A stretch of 64,000 nt of DNA, taken from Pedobacter sp. KBS0701 (GTDB lineage: Bacteria > Bacteroidota > Bacteroidia > Sphingobacteriales > Sphingobacteriaceae). Below are positions 9,811 through 64,000 of this stretch, one piece after another; the first letter of the stretch is position 1, and each line of letters starts with the position of its first letter. Location: positions 4,464,001 through 4,528,000 of the forward strand of contig NZ_CP042171.1 of assembly GCF_005938645.2 (NCBI RefSeq), in the 5' to 3' direction. The notes beneath the pieces were generated by a model. It did not search any database, was not told the DNA's origin, and saw nothing but the letters and a program-made list of their open reading frames with translations. The translations under genes were made by a program, and so were the position numbers.

Positions 9811-9922
9811 TCTTACACAGACCCAAGTTATCTAAACCTGATGGTAGCGATCCCGATTTTTCATCGGGACAAGCGTACAGCAGGACGAACATTAAAATGA
9901 TGACAGGCCTTGCTTTCCAAAA
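9811..9922 (+). repeat. Structured 112-bp interspersed repeat, copy 1
   Basis: An ungapped 112-bp block repeated at 10007-10118 with three mismatches, and in more diverged form at 56628-56735. It contains a hairpin with the loop TTTTTC (TCCCGAT...ATCGGGA) followed by GCGTACAGCAGG and ends CTTGCTTTCC. The 490 bp between the DUF6134 gene and the small membrane proteins hold two copies and no credible gene. Confidence 0.75.
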
Positions 9923-10769: not shown

Positions 10770-13700
10770 ATGTATAGCGAATTTAAACAACTGGAACTTG
10801 CCAAAATAGGGCAGGAAATATTAGATTTTTGGAAAAAAGAAAACATCTTTGAAAAAAGCATTTCTTCGCGTCCTAAATCTAATCCGTTTACTTTTTACGA
10901 AGGCCCACCGTCTGCCAATGGCATGCCGGGGATCCACCATGTAATGGCGCGTGCAATTAAAGATATTTTTTGCCGCTATAAAACAATTAAGGGTTATCAG
11001 GTTAAAAGAAAAGCTGGTTGGGATACGCATGGCCTGCCGGTTGAGCTTGGAACCGAAAAGGAACTAGGAATTACTAAAGAAGATATTGGTAAAACTATTT
11101 CTATTGAAGATTATAATGAAGCTTGCAAAAAAACAGTAATGCGCTACACTGATGTGTGGAACGACTTGACTGAAAAAATGGGCTATTGGGTAGATATGGA
11201 TGATCCATACATTACCTATAAGTCGAAATACATGGAATCAGTGTGGTGGCTTTTAAAGCAGATTTATGATAAAGGATTAATCTACAAAGGTTATACTATC
11301 CAACCCTATTCGCCTAAAGCCGGAACAGGATTGAGTTCGCATGAGGTCAATCAGCCTGGCGCTTACCGGGATGTTACAGATACAACGATTGTTGCTCAAT
11401 TTAAGGCGATAACAAATACGTTACCATCTTTTTTACAAGCATTTGGAGATATTTACCTGATGGCATGGACCACTACACCATGGACTTTACCATCAAACAC
11501 TGCTTTAACGGTTGGGCCAAAAATCGACTATGTTTTAATCAAAACGTTTAACCAATATACATTCTTGCCGACAAATGTAATTCTGGCAAAAAACCTGGTT
11601 GGCAAGCAGTTTAGTAAAATTTTCTTTGAAAGCAATGAAGTTGAAGATTTTACAAATTTTAAAACTGGCGATAAAAAAATCCCCTATCAAATACTTGCGG
11701 AATGCAAAGGAAGTGAGTTGGTTGGCATTAGATATGAACAACTTTTAACTTACGCATTGCCATACCAAAATTCTGAAAATGCATTTAGGGTAATTTCAGG
11801 AGATTTTGTAACTACAGAAGATGGTACTGGTATTGTGCATACCGCCCCTACTTTTGGTGCAGATGATGCTAAAGTAGCTAAAGAAGCTACTCCTGAAGTA
11901 CCGCCAATGCTGGTATTAGACGAAAATGATACCCCTGTTCCATTAGTAGATTTACAGGGTAAATTTACCAAACATGTTGGCCCTTTTGCAGGCAAATATG
12001 TAAAGAACGAATATTACAACGCTGGCGAAGCACCTGAAAAATCGGTTGATGTAGAAATCGCCATTTTATTAAAGGAAGAAAATAAAGCTTTTAAAGTAGA
12101 AAAATATGTTCACAGTTACCCACACAGCTGGAGAACTGATGAACCACTTTTGTATTATCCTTTAGATTCGTGGTTTATTAAAGTTACAGATGTTAAAGAC
12201 AGAATGTTCGACCTTAATGAAACCATTAACTGGAAACCAAAATCGACTGGCGAAGGTCGTTTTGGAAACTGGCTAAAAAACGCTAACGACTGGAATTTAT
12301 CACGTTCGAGATATTGGGGAATTCCTTTGCCAATCTGGAGAACTGAAGATAAAAAAGAAGAAGTGTTAATTGGCTCTGTCGAGGAACTTTATAATGCCAT
12401 TGAAAAATCTATAGCAGCTGGTTTCCAGAAAGAAAATCCTTTTAAGGGATTCGAAATCGGGAACATGTCTGAAGAGAACTATGATTTGATCGATTTACAT
12501 AAAAATGTGGTCGACAAAATTGTTTTAGTATCTCCATCAGGTAAACCGATGAGTCGCGAAAGTGATTTAATTGATGTTTGGTTTGACTCTGGTGCTATGC
12601 CTTATGCCCAGTGGCACTACCCTTTTGAAAACAAAGAAACAATCGATGGAAATGAAGATTTTCCAGCAGATTTTATTGCCGAAGGTGTAGACCAAACCCG
12701 TGGCTGGTTTTATACCCTACATGCAATCTCTACATTAGTTTTTGATAAAGTAGCGTACAAGAATGTAGTTTCAAATGGACTTGTACTAGACAAAAACGGA
12801 CAAAAAATGTCTAAACGTTTAGGCAATGCTGCTGATCCATTCCAAACTATAAACGAATATGGTGCTGATGCAACGCGTTGGTACATGATTTCGAATGCAA
12901 ATCCCTGGGATAATCTGAAATTTGACATTGATGGAATTGCTGAAGTTCGCCGTAAATTCTTCGGAACGCTTTACAATACCTATGCTTTCTTTGCCCTGTA
13001 TGCCAATATCGATAAATTCGAGATCGATAAAAACAATTTAAGCAAAGTGGAAGACAGAACGGAATTAGACCGTTGGATTTTATCGTTGTTGCAAACCTTA
13101 ATTAACGAAGTTGATGAAAGTTATAACACATACGAGCCAACGAAAGCAACCCGTGCTATTCAGGCTTTTGTTGATGAACATTTGAGTAACTGGTACATCA
13201 GGTTAAGTCGCCGTCGTTTCTGGAAAGGCGAAATGACCGATGATAAACGTGCAGCTTACGAAACATTATATACCTGTTTAGAAACCTTAGCACAGTTAAT
13301 GAGTCCTGTTGCGCCTTTCTTCGCTGATTGGTTATATAGAAACTTAACTGTTACCGATGCATACGCAGAGCAGTCTGTTCACTTAACTTTATGGAAAGAG
13401 GCTGACCAGAGTTTGATTGATACCGATTTGAATGAGCGTATGGTTTACGCACAGGATATTTCATCAATGGTTTTATCATTACGTAAAAAATCGGGCATCA
13501 ATGTGCGTCAACCACTTGAGAAAATCTTAATCCCATCGTTAAGTGGCGATTTCGAACAAAAAATATCAAAGGTTGCGGATTATATCCTTTCTGAAACGAA
13601 TGTGAAACATATCGAGTTCATTACCGATACACATGGTATCGTAAAGAAAAAGCTTAAACCGAACTTCAAATCGTTGGGTAAAAAGGTTGGAAAAGACATG

Positions 13701-58998: not shown

Positions 58999-59496
58999 TT
59001 AGCTTGTAGCTGCTACATTAGTTTTTTGATCTACATTGAAATAATCTTTATGATCTTCGATCATTTTAGCAATAGTAGCTGCTTTGGTATCAGTTATTTT
59101 AAACTCGAATAATGGCTCTTGATTTTTCTTTGATCTCACCATTTTCTCTGTGTAAAAGCGGTAAACTAAACCGTTGGTTAATAAGCCATATTTCGCTTTT
59201 GTTTTACGGAAGTATTTAGACAGGCGTGAATCATGAATATCCAAATTATCGTTATGGTGTTTACATTCAACCAGAATTGTTGGTTCGCCATCTTTCATAA
59301 TGGTGTAATCAACTTTTTTACTTTTTTTAACCCCGAAGTCTAGAACGGCTTCAGATTGAACCTCAGAAGGGTCAAACCCTAAGATCTGGATAAAAGGCAT
59401 AACTAACGCATTCCTTGTTAAATCCTCAGATTGAACTTGTGGAAGCATTTTCTTAATTCTTACGGCAAACTGCCCGATTTCGTCTTTCAATTCCAT
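58999..59496 (-). CDS. Stand-alone HSDR_N (type I restriction enzyme R N-terminal domain) protein
   Basis: 165 aa, only the N-terminal nuclease-like domain of HsdR. It has the PD-(D/E)xK pattern: FIQILGFDPSEVQSEAVLDF, VDYTIMKDGEPTILVECKHH (Asp then Glu-x-Lys), and KYGLLTNGLVYRFYTEKM. The helicase and methylase parts of a type I system are absent here. Such free HSDR_N proteins are common in Bacteroidota; function is unknown (defence, or a fixed housekeeping nuclease). It follows the 123-aa partner gene with a 19-bp gap. Confidence 0.85.
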   Translation of the reverse strand: MELKDEIGQFAVRIKKMLPQVQSEDLTRNALVMPFIQILGFDPSEVQSEAVLDFGVKKSKKVDYTIMKDGEPTILVECKHHNDNLDIHDSRLSKYFRKTKAKYGLLTNGLVYRFYTEKMVRSKKNQEPLFEFKITDTKAATIAKMIEDHKDYFNVDQKTNVAATS

Positions 59497-59515: not shown

Positions 59516-59887
59516 TTAATTTTTTAAATTATACTGGTTAAATACCGAATTTGCAGTGATAATAATTTGATCTAAACTTTGTTTATCAAAAAAGTTTCTG
59601 TTCAACATATCAACCATATAAGTTAATTTATTGATATCATTTGCCTGCATCGTAAACTGAAAGCTTTTCATGCCATCTTTTATAGCCTGTTGAACATAAT
59701 TGCGTACAACCAAAAAAGATTTCCTGAAGGCATGTTCGCCATCTAACTGGCCCTTAACAGGCTTTCCATCAAGATTACGATATTCATTTTGCATCCTCTG
59801 GTACATATCTGAGTTGATTCCTTGATTTTTTAGAATCCCCTTGTAATAGATTTTATTCAGTAAATACTCGTATTCGTTGTTTTTCAT
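59516..59887 (-). CDS. Unknown helical protein upstream of the HSDR_N gene
   Basis: 123-aa cytoplasmic protein, predicted mostly alpha-helical (NEYEYLLNKIYYKGILKNQG, GEHAFRKSFLVVRNYVQQAI, NKLTYMVDMLNRNFFDKQSL). I do not recognise the family. Its stop is 19 bp before the HSDR_N start and both are followed by one terminator, so they are probably an operon. Divergent from the LytTR regulator gene. A DNA- or RNA-binding accessory role for the nuclease-like partner is possible but not shown. Confidence 0.65.
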   Translation of the reverse strand: MKNNEYEYLLNKIYYKGILKNQGINSDMYQRMQNEYRNLDGKPVKGQLDGEHAFRKSFLVVRNYVQQAIKDGMKSFQFTMQANDINKLTYMVDMLNRNFFDKQSLDQIIITANSVFNQYNLKN

Positions 59888-60147
59888 GTGGATGCTCGGG
59901 TAGATGTAGGGAATATTTCTTTGCTTTTCGGTTTTCTTGTTTTTGGTAATCTAACCCAGTATTGTATGGCCTGTTTTCAATTTTATTATCCACAGGCTAC
60001 ACAAGATTGGGCAGGCAGATGTTTTTCACAATTAGTAGCTCTCACCGCTAATTATTTTGTTTTTGGCAAACAGTTTAAAGATTATAAAAAGAATGGGTGC
60101 GGATAATTTTTTTACATCAACCACCCAGAATATTACACGAAACCCTG

Positions 60148-60186
60148 GTTTTTTTTAGACAAAACCGGATATGAGTTTTTTTTAGA
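60148..60186 (+). promoter_or_regulatory. Candidate LytTR-regulator binding region: direct repeat before the response regulator
   Basis: GTTTTTTTTAGA is exactly repeated at 60148-60159 and 60175-60186 (27-bp period); the first continues as CAAAACC. A similar pair (GTTTTTTACACAAACC then ATTTTTAACAG) precedes the histidine kinase gene. LytTR proteins bind pairs of imperfect direct repeats, so this is a candidate autoregulatory site. The spacer from 59888 to 60256 holds no gene. Confidence 0.4.
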
Positions 60187-60256: not shown

Positions 60257-61003
60257 ATGAATCTAAAATGCGTTGTTATAGACGACGAGCAACATGCAAT
60301 TGAGGTATTAACTGACCACATTGCAGAAATGCCTGGTTTAACAGTTTTTAAAACTTTTACCAGCCCTGTCCAAGCACTTACCGAGATAAGTATTGAGGAC
60401 GAAATTGATTTATTATTTATGGATATTGATATGCCAGGAATCAATGGATTAGAACTGGCGAAAAATATCAGAGAAAAAGCAAAATATTTGATTTTCACAA
60501 CTGCTCATCCCGATTATGCCTTGCAAGCATTTGATGTACAATCAGATCAGTACTTATTAAAACCTATTTCTTTTGCAAAATTTGCATTAGGTATTGATAG
60601 GATTTTAAAAAAGGAATCAAATAATAATAGCAAAGGCACTACGAAAGAAGCTGATCAGGTTGCGGCCCTTTACATCAAAGGCGACCATAAATATGCTTTT
60701 TCCAACATCGCTATTGATGAAATACTTTATATCAAAGCACTACAGAATTATATACAGATTATTACTAAGTCTGAAATCCACACTACCTATCTTACACTTA
60801 AGGAAATTGAAAAGGCCTTAGAGAACCACCCTTTTATCCGTGTTAATAAATCGAACATTGTGGCTAAATCGGCAATCAAAAAAGTAGATGGAAATATAAT
60901 CCGTTTGGTAAATAACGAGATGATACAAATTGGCGAAGGTTATAAAGAAACTTTCTTCGCCTATGTACAGAGCAGTTTATTAAAGTCCAACCGGAATCAG
61001 TAG
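60257..61003 (+). CDS. LytTR-family response regulator
   Basis: 248 aa: receiver domain (residues about 3-118; acidic pocket Asp9-Asp10, phosphorylation site Asp56 in LLFMDIDMPG, Lys in YLLKPIS) and a C-terminal LytTR DNA-binding domain (about 140-240; DEILYIKALQNYIQI, HPFIRVNKSNIVAKSAIKKV). It is the usual partner of an NPHFLFN histidine kinase such as the one at 61301. The two genes are separated by an opposite-strand small peptide gene. It probably responds to the peptide system at the right edge (inference from place). Confidence 0.94.
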   Translation: MNLKCVVIDDEQHAIEVLTDHIAEMPGLTVFKTFTSPVQALTEISIEDEIDLLFMDIDMPGINGLELAKNIREKAKYLIFTTAHPDYALQAFDVQSDQYLLKPISFAKFALGIDRILKKESNNNSKGTTKEADQVAALYIKGDHKYAFSNIAIDEILYIKALQNYIQIITKSEIHTTYLTLKEIEKALENHPFIRVNKSNIVAKSAIKKVDGNIIRLVNNEMIQIGEGYKETFFAYVQSSLLKSNRNQ

Positions 61004-61008
61004 ATATA

Positions 61009-61158
61009 TTACAATATAATATTGCTAACTGTTCCAGTCATAATGATAGTTTGACTTTGATCACCAGTTGGCTGTGTTGTAAAATTGTTTTGATCTTTAA
61101 TGTTTTTATAAACAAAAACAGTTCTTTTAGCAAGTTTAGTAATGTGTTGAGCTTTCAT
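61009..61158 (-). CDS. Putative RiPP precursor peptide, Thr/Ser-rich and cysteine-free
   Basis: 49-codon gene missed by length-limited ORF lists. The N-terminal half is basic (MKAQHITKLAKRTVFVYKNI) and the C-terminal part is rich in Thr and Ser: TTQPTGDQSQ then TIIMTGTVSNIIL (six Thr and two Ser in the last 23 residues, no Cys anywhere). That is the make-up of a leader plus a dehydratable core. It lies on the strand of the LanB-type gene, between the LytTR regulator and its kinase, 5 bp from the regulator's stop. No double-glycine leader end is seen. Being a real gene is supported by its placement and composition; that it is a LanB substrate is inference. Confidence 0.6.
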   Translation of the reverse strand: MKAQHITKLAKRTVFVYKNIKDQNNFTTQPTGDQSQTIIMTGTVSNIIL

Positions 61159-61234
61159 GATATAATATTTTATGTGTTTACTTGTTGTTGTTATTAATTT
61201 CTGTAAAGGTGCAACTCAAAACATAACGCAACCA

Positions 61235-61264
61235 GTTTTTTACACAAACCCCCATTTTTAACAG
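61235..61264 (+). promoter_or_regulatory. Candidate LytTR-regulator binding region before the histidine kinase
   Basis: GTTTTTTACACAAACC (61235-61250) then ATTTTTAACAG (61254-61264) resemble the pair at 60148-60186 before the response regulator gene. It lies 37-66 bp before the kinase ATG and also in the promoter region of the divergent peptide gene. Confidence 0.35.
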
Positions 61265-61300
61265 GCCAAAACCTTAATTTAATAGATAAAAAGCAATAAA

Positions 61301-62416
61301 ATGATTTTTTTTAACCTCAAAAAATTCTTTCAGAATTATAAACTTCATTTCTTAATTTGGGGAATTTATATCATTTATGAGGTATTTATCCTAGGTCTAT
61401 TTTCAAAATCTTTTAAGCAACCAGGAGTTTATATTATCATTTATGTTACTAATATTTCTGTTTTTTATGGTTATTCTTTTTTTCTAAATAAGATACTAAA
61501 CAAAAGAAATGACATTTTTAAAGTGATAAGGATTTCGTTACTGATATTGTTAGCGAGTTTATTGTATACTTCAGTTACCTTTTTATTAAGTGCATTATTT
61601 AGAGCAGTTGGATTAATTATAGTCCCGACTCCAATTGCAATTGATATGGCATTCATTCTAAGCTGTATTTATCGTTCTTTATATTATATCGGCTTTGCAA
61701 CGGGTTATGTTTATCTTATTAAATCATTTCAGGATCAGAAGAAAGTAGAAGCACTGGAACGGCAGAACCTGGTTACACAAATAGAAAAACAGGCTTTAGA
61801 GAATGATCTGGTTCAATCGCAAAACAATTATCTGCGCAGTCAAATCAATCCACACTTTCTATTTAACACATTAAACTTCATCTATAACGATGCCCGCAAA
61901 AAGGCACCTATGGCAGCAGATGCCATTATGAATCTGGCCGAAATGATGCGCTATGCCCTAAAACGTCCTGAAGCATCAGAGATGGTTCCGCTAAGTGAAG
62001 AAATTGAACAAATTGAACACCTGATCAATCTTCACAAACTCCGGACAGCTAATGCAATTAATCTGCAACTTGAAATAACGGGCGATATGTTTGGATTAAG
62101 ATTTCCACCACTTATCTTACTAACTTTGGTTGAAAACATATTTAAGCACGGAAATATTTCGCACTCTACTCAACCAGCGATCATTAAAATCACTTACGAA
62201 AAAGATAAGCTGAATATCAGCACCATAAACATGATTAATGATAATAAAGGCAAACAAACGGAAAGCCATCATGTAGGAATTGATAATATTGGCAAGCGCC
62301 TGAGTAATTTTTATGGTAACGACTATGTATTCAGATATTACCAGGATCCACTTAACCGCTACATTACAGAAATAGATGTAACTGTAGTTAATCCATTGGC
62401 CAGGTTAAACCGCTAA
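61301..62416 (+). CDS. Sensor histidine kinase, LytS/YehU type
   Basis: 371-aa membrane kinase. About four membrane helices lie in residues 15-145; no large periplasmic domain, so it may sense a membrane or peptide signal. A coiled linker (about 150-180) leads to the His_kinase domain (H185 in INPHFLFNTLNFI, Asn of the ATP pocket in LTLVENIFKHG) and a HATPase-like end (HHVGIDNIGKRLSNFYG). It is the partner of the LytTR regulator. The 3' end overlaps the convergent LanB-type gene by 4 bp. Confidence 0.93.
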   Translation: MIFFNLKKFFQNYKLHFLIWGIYIIYEVFILGLFSKSFKQPGVYIIIYVTNISVFYGYSFFLNKILNKRNDIFKVIRISLLILLASLLYTSVTFLLSALFRAVGLIIVPTPIAIDMAFILSCIYRSLYYIGFATGYVYLIKSFQDQKKVEALERQNLVTQIEKQALENDLVQSQNNYLRSQINPHFLFNTLNFIYNDARKKAPMAADAIMNLAEMMRYALKRPEASEMVPLSEEIEQIEHLINLHKLRTANAINLQLEITGDMFGLRFPPLILLTLVENIFKHGNISHSTQPAIIKITYEKDKLNISTINMINDNKGKQTESHHVGIDNIGKRLSNFYGNDYVFRYYQDPLNRYITEIDVTVVNPLARLNR

Positions 62417-64000
62417 ATTTTTGTTGCATTCTGACGTTGAATGTCTTTTAGCAGAAAATAATACATAACCATTTCATGCGTCCGCTGATCTTTGTTGAAG
62501 AGTCTGTTTACGTGCATGTGTATTAAATCGGTGAATAGCTTTAATGCATTTTCAGGAGCACATTGTGTAAGAACTCTGATAAAAGAATCTGAAAACAAGC
62601 TAAAGCCCTGCTCCTGTTCTGCTGTTAATGCTGCCCATTCTGCTTTTCGAAACTCCTGATAATGAATATTTAATTGTTTAAAATCAGCGGCATCCAATCG
62701 ATGCTCTTCATTAAAGTTATCAGACATTAATCTCACGACCTTATTGATGGCCGGCTTATCTATAATGCCGGCTCCGATAATCTTTGAAACCAAAAGATTA
62801 CACAGTTTATATTTGTTAAAATCATCTATCTGTGTTTCTAAAAGCAATATTACAAATGCACTATCTATAGCAAAGTGCCGTTCAACATCTTCAATCATAT
62901 TACTGCCGTAACGTTCTAACTCACGCTTATAGGTTTTAATCTGTACGTCAGATACCAAACCAGAGTATAAAAACAATTCCAGATCATCCATGAGCTTTGA
63001 TATTAACAGCTGTCCATCCATTGGATTGTTTAGTTGAATCCTAAACCGGATGTGGTTTCCATTTTCATTGTAGCGGATAAAAAACCAAGATTTTACCTGA
63101 TCTGTATGAGTGGTTAGGAAAGGCGCAATTACTTCCGTCAAAATCTGATCACTACGTTGCTGATGGCAATAAATTTCGAAATAAAGCCATTCTTTACCTG
63201 GCGGAAAAAGTCGGGTTACCCCGGCATTTGCTGATTGCTCAACCAAACCACGATAAATTTGTTCGCCGTGACTTATGCTTAAAACAAACTGTGCTAAATA
63301 GGGTTTAGCTGTTTCATCAACCACAATGCTATTTTGAGGCATTAACATTTCTTCAATATAAGTACTGCCTTGTTTTTGCATATATTGTAAGAAAGCATTG
63401 ATATCGTCGTCATTTTGTAGGGCAAAGCACAAAGTTTGATCGGAAATACCGGCTTTGAAATATTCACTAACGCCTAAACTGTTTAGGAATGATCTACATC
63501 CGGCGATAGATAGCAACTTTTGATCAGGCCCTGAAAGGGCTTCTTTTTTAACTTTCCATTTGTTACCGCTTAAAACAATATTCTGATATTGTAACCTTGG
63601 GTAATAATCCAAATCAGGGAAAATAGTATCGAGCGGTAAGGAGAGATTTGTTTGTAAGCCTTGATGTTGCAAATCACACAATAACCTAAATACAGAAAGA
63701 TCTGAACGGATGTAGTTGTAGGCAGAAGCCATTCTAGGCACCAGCCGTTTATTTAACTGCTTAGAGCGAAGGATAATCTCAGTGCCCCGAACTGAAATCT
63801 GTATATCATTTAAAGCAAGTGGAACTGCTGAAGTATCAAAATTTAATATTGACAATTGATACCCATAGATTAGCTTCCGCCGGTTTACGTTATCTACATT
63901 GGCCTCTACCATATAGGCCACATCGAAAAATAACACCTCCGGATTTGCCTGCTGTTCTGCCGATGCTATGTTTTTAGCGTACTTCGCCACCTCATCGGCC
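62413..64000 (-). CDS. LanB-type lantibiotic dehydratase / thiopeptide-type biosynthesis protein, partial (5' end outside the window)
   Basis: 528 visible codons, open to the window edge (codons before the GTG at 63990 are in frame), so this is the C-terminal part of a larger protein. The first part matches the end of the dehydratase N domain (LNDIQISVRGTEIILRSKQL, then RMASAYNYI and LCDLQHQG). The last 270 residues match the SpaB_C/thiopeptide-type domain (EWLYFEIYCHQQRSDQILTE, SWFFIRYNENGNHIRFRIQL, YKRELERYGSNMIEDVERHF). In class I lanthipeptides this family dehydrates Ser/Thr using glutamyl-tRNA. Convergent with the kinase. Confidence 0.9.
   Translation of the reverse strand, partial: ADEVAKYAKNIASAEQQANPEVLFFDVAYMVEANVDNVNRRKLIYGYQLSILNFDTSAVPLALNDIQISVRGTEIILRSKQLNKRLVPRMASAYNYIRSDLSVFRLLCDLQHQGLQTNLSLPLDTIFPDLDYYPRLQYQNIVLSGNKWKVKKEALSGPDQKLLSIAGCRSFLNSLGVSEYFKAGISDQTLCFALQNDDDINAFLQYMQKQGSTYIEEMLMPQNSIVVDETAKPYLAQFVLSISHGEQIYRGLVEQSANAGVTRLFPPGKEWLYFEIYCHQQRSDQILTEVIAPFLTTHTDQVKSWFFIRYNENGNHIRFRIQLNNPMDGQLLISKLMDDLELFLYSGLVSDVQIKTYKRELERYGSNMIEDVERHFAIDSAFVILLLETQIDDFNKYKLCNLLVSKIIGAGIIDKPAINKVVRLMSDNFNEEHRLDAADFKQLNIHYQEFRKAEWAALTAEQEQGFSLFSDSFIRVLTQCAPENALKLFTDLIHMHVNRLFNKDQRTHEMVMYYFLLKDIQRQNATKI

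Follow-up and report, generated by a model that had tools for sequence, protein, structure and literature searches.

Cys-free peptides encoded antisense within LytTR two-component genes of Pedobacter appear to form an as yet undescribed family of modified signal peptides

Introduction

What does a LanB-type dehydratase make when the precursor candidate encoded beside it has no cysteine? The question arises at one end of a 64-kb stretch of the chromosome of the soil bacterium Pedobacter sp. KBS0701, the window of this study (positions 4464001-4528000 of a complete 6.33-Mb genome). An initial annotation of the window had pointed to a LanB-type gene entering at the right edge, to a 49-codon gene with a Thr/Ser-rich, Cys-free C-terminal half about 1.25 kb away on the same strand, and to the position of this putative precursor inside the genes of a LytTR two-component system. 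It left two readings of the product, a linear dehydroamino-acid peptide or one that depends on a Cys-bearing partner peptide, and guessed that the peptide controls expression.

Results

Anatomy of the locus

The features of the locus, in window coordinates, are as follows.

58999-59496, − strand: 165-aa HSDR_N_2-domain gene, a candidate target or mere syntenic neighbor (present in 46 of 79 named loci)
59516-59887, − strand: 123-aa gene with no family assigned, downstream of the second repeat site and a candidate target (present in 25 of 79 named loci)
60108-60165, − strand: second repeat array, three repeats at 22 bp (GTTTTGTCTAAAAA, GTTTCGTGTAATA, GTTGATGTAAAAA), the second-best site in the window
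60257-61003, + strand: LytTR response regulator (RR), 248 aa, PF00072 and PF04397 (domain matches)
61009-61158, − strand: precursor peptide gene, 49 aa, MKAQHITKLAKRTVFVYKNIKDQNNFTTQPTGDQSQTIIMTGTVSNIIL (ATG frame; family and coding constraint)
61202-61211, − strand: conserved, promoter-like element CACCTTTACA, its putative role suggested by position
61236-61271, − strand: LytTR-type imperfect direct repeat in the peptide promoter, TTTTGGCCTGTTAAAAATGGGGGTTTGTGTAAAAAA, the top window match (score 41.7)
61301-62416, + strand: histidine kinase (HK), 371 aa, PF06580 kinase with a helical membrane N terminus (domain matches and model)
62413-64000, − strand: stand-alone LanB dehydratase, of which the window holds the C-terminal part (domains and NisB alignment)

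The descriptive parts of the initial annotation were borne out. The LanB-type gene, which ends at 62413, encodes Lant_dehydr_N/C domains (PF04738, PF14028; TIGR03891), and 1255 bases separate its end from the start of the peptide gene on the same strand. In residues 27 to 49 of the peptide, Thr occurs six times and Ser twice; the whole peptide is free of Cys. The peptide gene is indeed flanked by the two-component genes: it converges with the RR gene, 5 bases separating their stops, and diverges from the HK gene, which in turn lies tail to tail with LanB in a 4-base overlap.

Extending the locus to the right, as the annotation had proposed, brought us to the LanB start. The full gene encodes 932 aa and runs to genome position 4529211, 1211 bases past the window, and beyond it lie OmpA-like, PorP/SprF-like, and giant repeat-protein genes. 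The extended locus held no LanC, transporter, protease, or second or Cys-rich precursor beside LanB. There was likewise no AgrB/ComAB-like export or processing protein beside the window LanB, and the other loci had no conserved extra gene except syntenic neighbors. Of the two proposed product readings, the linear dehydroamino-acid peptide is favored by this result together with the scarcity of Cys and the absences of LanC among relatives described below; the Cys-bearing partner is absent from the extended locus.

The peptide family

Judged by sequence comparison, the 49-codon frame is a real gene rather than a chance one, because the antisense peptide recurs in RR-then-HK pairs and is under frame-specific purifying selection. 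All six RR-then-HK ordered LytTR pairs with an intergenic gap in the window genome hold an antisense Thr-rich peptide gene; LanB adjoins two of these cassettes and is missing beside four. Between similar peptides, dN/dS was 0.105 in the annotated frame versus 1.9 and 1.6 in the other two frames, and both leader (0.17) and core (0.09) were constrained.

Between loci, the leader is more conserved than the core (mean distance, 0.44 versus 0.68). The leader motif KL.K[KR]T[VLA]F.[FY]K is conserved, usually together with [DEN]PT[TN], and the core is variable and rich in Thr and Ser (28% Ser/Thr, versus 18% in the leader). Cys is absent from 162 of the 170 distinct family peptides. Thus, the family combines a conserved leader, a variable core, and a modifying enzyme linked to the precursor, as expected of a RiPP. 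The peptides match no NCBIfam family and, for the window peptide, no Pfam family; they carry neither an obvious double-Gly site nor a signal peptide, and genes for an exporter, a leader protease, or immunity are not linked to the cassette.

The cassette has the order RR (LytTR), antisense peptide, HK (PF06580), and most of the short-type LanB loci that we fetched read LanB, HK, peptide(s), RR, with LanB and peptide(s) on one strand and HK and RR on the other. Precursors are single or form tandem arrays of up to seven per cassette. We collected 101 distinct cassettes, 71 of them with a LanB of about 930 aa in the fetched stretch. Among 79 named LanB loci, mostly from Pedobacter and also from Mucilaginibacter, Olivibacter, Taibaiella, and Chitinophaga, a hand count found the peptide in all 66 with the RR-then-HK order; the other 13 differ in layout. 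The pairing of peptide and LanB that had been suggested implied homologs near other LanB genes, and such homologs exist. The named LanBs most closely related to that of the window come from Pedobacter, with P. alluvionis reaching 90% identity in the best segment.

A profile made from the window-genome peptides detected family members in 50 of about 70 genomes of the same genus, and 84 of 301 genomes in a Sphingobacteriaceae sample carry the peptide. We also considered a phylum-wide family and rejected it, as a 296-genome Bacteroidota sample gave one match outside the genus, and that a weak one. Searchable literature, which does not extend to Caetano 2020 and Bothwell 2021 on Pedobacter lusitanus, yielded no description of the antisense cassette. 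These sequences appear to us to represent a hitherto undescribed family of bacterial signal peptides that carry chemical modifications.

Several cassettes depart from the common form. At locus L151, one frameshifted copy (MKAQHTNTSAKLAKKLFLFIKTSKLKTAFLKPRQPEIKVTLL) lies among intact tandem precursors between the HK gene, which ends at 9914, and the RR gene, which starts at 10820. Adjacent precursor copies in this array are near identical, suggesting recent duplication or gene conversion. One cassette of the window genome (L013:588-1226; genome, about 1414.3-1415.0 kb) has its HK broken into short frames of 97 and 68 aa; its peptide and RR appear intact, and it is perhaps a decaying channel. 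An extra orphan LytTR regulator adjoins two cassettes, L035/L034 (genome, 2178.3 and 2176.8 kb) and L037/L033 (2975.2 and 2976.4 kb).

LanB, LanC, and the predicted chemistry

The equivalents of NisB R14, Y80, R83, R87, D299, R784, R786, E823, R826, H961, R966, and E975 are invariant across 19 family LanBs, the R14 equivalent, which lies beyond the local alignment to NisB, having been assigned by eye. Mutagenesis of NisB has shown that Y80 and H961 are essential and that R14, R83, and R87 are important (PMC4341554). As in class I lanthipeptide systems, LanB thus has both the glutamylation and the elimination domain with their key residues. The core Cys and the LanC cyclase of such systems are lacking at the locus, and nearly all family peptides are likewise without Cys.

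In the Sphingobacteriaceae sample, LanB is present in 83 of the 84 peptide-positive genomes versus 79 of the 217 peptide-negative ones (Fisher p about 5e-27, uncorrected for kinship). At least 28 genomes holding both peptide and LanB had no detectable LanC when genome-wide searches were compared by hand, and on this account lanthionine formation seems improbable. Since the NisB-like residues are kept, LanC is absent from these genomes, and peptide and LanB co-occur, linear dehydrated peptides would be the likeliest product.

The window genome has one LanC-like gene (5162673-5163602), and this lies next to another LanB. That LanB is a canonical one of 1061 aa with its own HK/LytTR pair (L009; genome, 5155-5175 kb). 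We also observed a sister layout consisting of HK, RR, and then a convergent LanB of about 1000 aa, in which a different Cys-free, Ser/Thr-containing small ORF diverges from the HK gene. These ORFs lie at L010:5397-5540 (−), L136:3929-4075 (−), L135:3788-3928 (−), and L137:8302-8466 (+); an example from the window genome is MTKSKKLPQKRTQTYSRYGTFQRNGNISETDTTAATGTITSTHIFKK.

The histidine kinase as a candidate receptor

If the adjoining HK senses the core, the two might be expected to vary together. Across 60 dereplicated cassettes, all with LanB, core distance correlated with HK-sensor distance once LanB, RR, and HK-catalytic distances were removed (partial r, 0.46), a value reached in none of 2000 permutations, which leave some shared ancestry in place. 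The correlation held in both near (0.59) and far (0.47) subsets, versus only 0.10 for the core against the HK catalytic part and 0.15 for the core against LanB. Windows along the HK placed the highest co-variation with the core over the sensor and connecting helix. Fast evolution alone was considered as an explanation and rejected: fast LanB columns gave a mean of 0.06 and a maximum of 0.23.

The five intact cassette HKs form a single clade among the HKs of the window genome (support, 100/99). A structural model of the window HK (pLDDT 79, pTM 0.45) predicts four N-terminal helices (14-35, 41-66, 74-103, and the first part of a long helix beginning at 116) followed by the kinase. The top Foldseek matches to this model are AgrC cytoplasmic domains, which cover the kinase part only and have low TM-scores.

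Promoter repeats

Imperfect direct repeats (GTTTGTGTAAAA-like) occur in the peptide promoters, and across 29 dissimilar ones their 21-bp period was sharp (z, 7.3). About 30 bases below the repeats lies the CACCTTTACA element, which is TAnnTTT-like in other subfamilies. Known LytTR sites consist of two 9- to 11-nt repeats with 11- to 13-nt spacers (PMC4847170), and triple repeats have also been described (PMC11347149); the 21-bp period of the predicted sites fits this geometry. A matrix made without the window site placed its best match in the 64 kb at 61236-61271 (41.7). The second-best match, at 60108-60143 (10.9), belongs to the triple array, which precedes the RR gene in divergent orientation and is found at the same position in nearly all close LanB loci. 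This second promoter site may serve unrelated neighbors. Both the 123-aa gene and the HSDR_N_2-domain gene are situated downstream of it. The 165-aa HSDR_N_2 protein (58999-59496, −) is stand-alone and shows 83 to 98% identity among the loci printed, beside close LanB cassettes.

The cassette thus resembles a LytTR quorum-sensing system in its predicted parts, with a peptide, an HK, and a LytTR RR encoded together and direct repeats in the peptide promoter. The LytTR-type repeats and the co-variation of core and HK sensor strengthen the earlier guess of peptide-controlled expression, with sensing of the peptide as the presumed link.

Discussion

We consider it probable that the cassette specifies a peptide pheromone that lacks Cys, is dehydrated by LanB, and acts through an AgrCA-like HK/LytTR receptor of its own under positive feedback. 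In this model, the precursor would be translated and its conserved leader recognized by LanB, which would dehydrate core Thr and Ser to Dhb and Dha by way of glutamyl-tRNA. For want of core Cys and LanC, no lanthionine rings would form. After removal of the leader, the linear dehydrated core would leave the cell through an unlinked system. The adjoining membrane HK would then sense the core and phosphorylate the LytTR regulator, which would bind the direct repeats of the peptide promoter, closing a positive feedback loop, and the second site upstream of the RR gene. Since four of the six window-genome cassettes have no LanB beside them, we assume modification in trans: one LanB probably serves several cassettes, and each HK would match the core of its own cassette.

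Antibiotics are the typical products of LanB enzymes, and lantibiotic autoinduction is known from NisK/NisR (PMC8895600). The product might accordingly be a secreted linear dehydropeptide with antimicrobial or other bioactivity, and nisin-like HK/RR autoregulation would then do no more than control a bacteriocin-like product. Tandem arrays would also suit bulk production. Against this, no transporter, protease, or immunity gene was recognized beside the window LanB, the LanB loci inspected have no conserved extra gene set, the window genome has six distinct cassettes, each with its own HK and RR, and the core appears tuned to the sensor; we think this account unlikely. Alternatively, the peptides could be HK-sensed signals that are never dehydrated, with LanB doing other work: it might glutamylate without eliminating, add aminoacyl groups, or modify a different substrate. 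Many cassettes do lack a linked LanB, and LanB-like enzymes with other chemistry, the PEARLs, have been described (PMC11962472). This proposal, which we find rather improbable, has to contend with the joint presence of LanB and peptide in 83 of 84 genomes, the common leader and Ser/Thr-rich cores, and the invariance of the elimination-domain residues (equivalents of R786, E823, R826, and H961). PEARLs are not known to have an elimination domain.

The antisense position of the ORF between RR and HK, together with the lack of a secretion signal or linked exporter, would fit an intracellular role, with the ORF acting either as a regulatory peptide or as an antisense transcript of the HK/RR genes. 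We judge this very unlikely, as purifying selection acts at the protein level in one frame, overlap with the RR or HK genes is little or none in most loci, and the linkage to LanB would go unexplained. There is hardly any prospect, finally, that the product is a conventional class I lanthipeptide, with Cys supplied by a partner peptide or a free thiol and LanC acting in trans: although the window genome does have a LanC-like gene beside its other LanB (5162673-5163602), 162 of 170 peptides are Cys-free, and LanC is missing from at least 28 genomes that encode both peptide and LanB.

The pheromone reading sets the cassette between known systems. It shares with nisin (NisABCTIPRKFEG) a LanB with both domains, a leader-core precursor, and two-component autoregulation. 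Unlike nisin, it lacks a core Cys, LanC, transporter, protease, and immunity gene, has a LytTR regulator in place of NisR, places the peptide antisense between RR and HK, and occurs many times per genome. With AgrBDCA and ComCDE it has in common a small peptide gene, a multi-helix membrane HK, a LytTR regulator, and direct repeats in the peptide promoter. It differs from them in its Gram-negative phylum, its PF06580 HK, the presence of LanB in place of AgrB, and the absence of a thiolactone Cys and of a linked transporter or protease. Linaridins such as cypemycin are likewise dehydrated linear RiPPs; their dehydration enzymes are different from LanB. Pinensins, the Pedobacter lusitanus peptides, Chryseobacterium ChmA, and Runella RuiA come from the same phylum and enzyme class. 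The pinensins and the P. lusitanus peptides have Cys-bearing cores and LanC, unlike the cassette. The same is true of ChmA and RuiA, and native tRNA-Glu/GluRS served in the reconstitution of ChmABC and RuiABC (PMC9993889). The accessible portions of the work on Bacteroidota class I lanthipeptides describe no antisense peptide cassette.

The model is directly testable, as both the precursor and LanB are of small size, the promoter sites are defined, and many of the hosts are cultured soil bacteria. We see about an even chance that Pedobacter and its relatives signal from cell to cell through multiple channels, using linear dehydrobutyrine-rich peptides, one shared LanB, and a separate HK/LytTR pair for each channel. 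The known peptide pheromones that HK/LytTR pairs sense come mainly from Firmicutes. If the model is true, a peptide pheromone class would exist in a Gram-negative phylum, and the Bacteroidota would gain a class of modified-peptide signaling with several parallel channels per genome. LanB would then be used without lanthionine formation, to make a linear dehydropeptide, and many orphan LanB genes without a recognized precursor would be explained.
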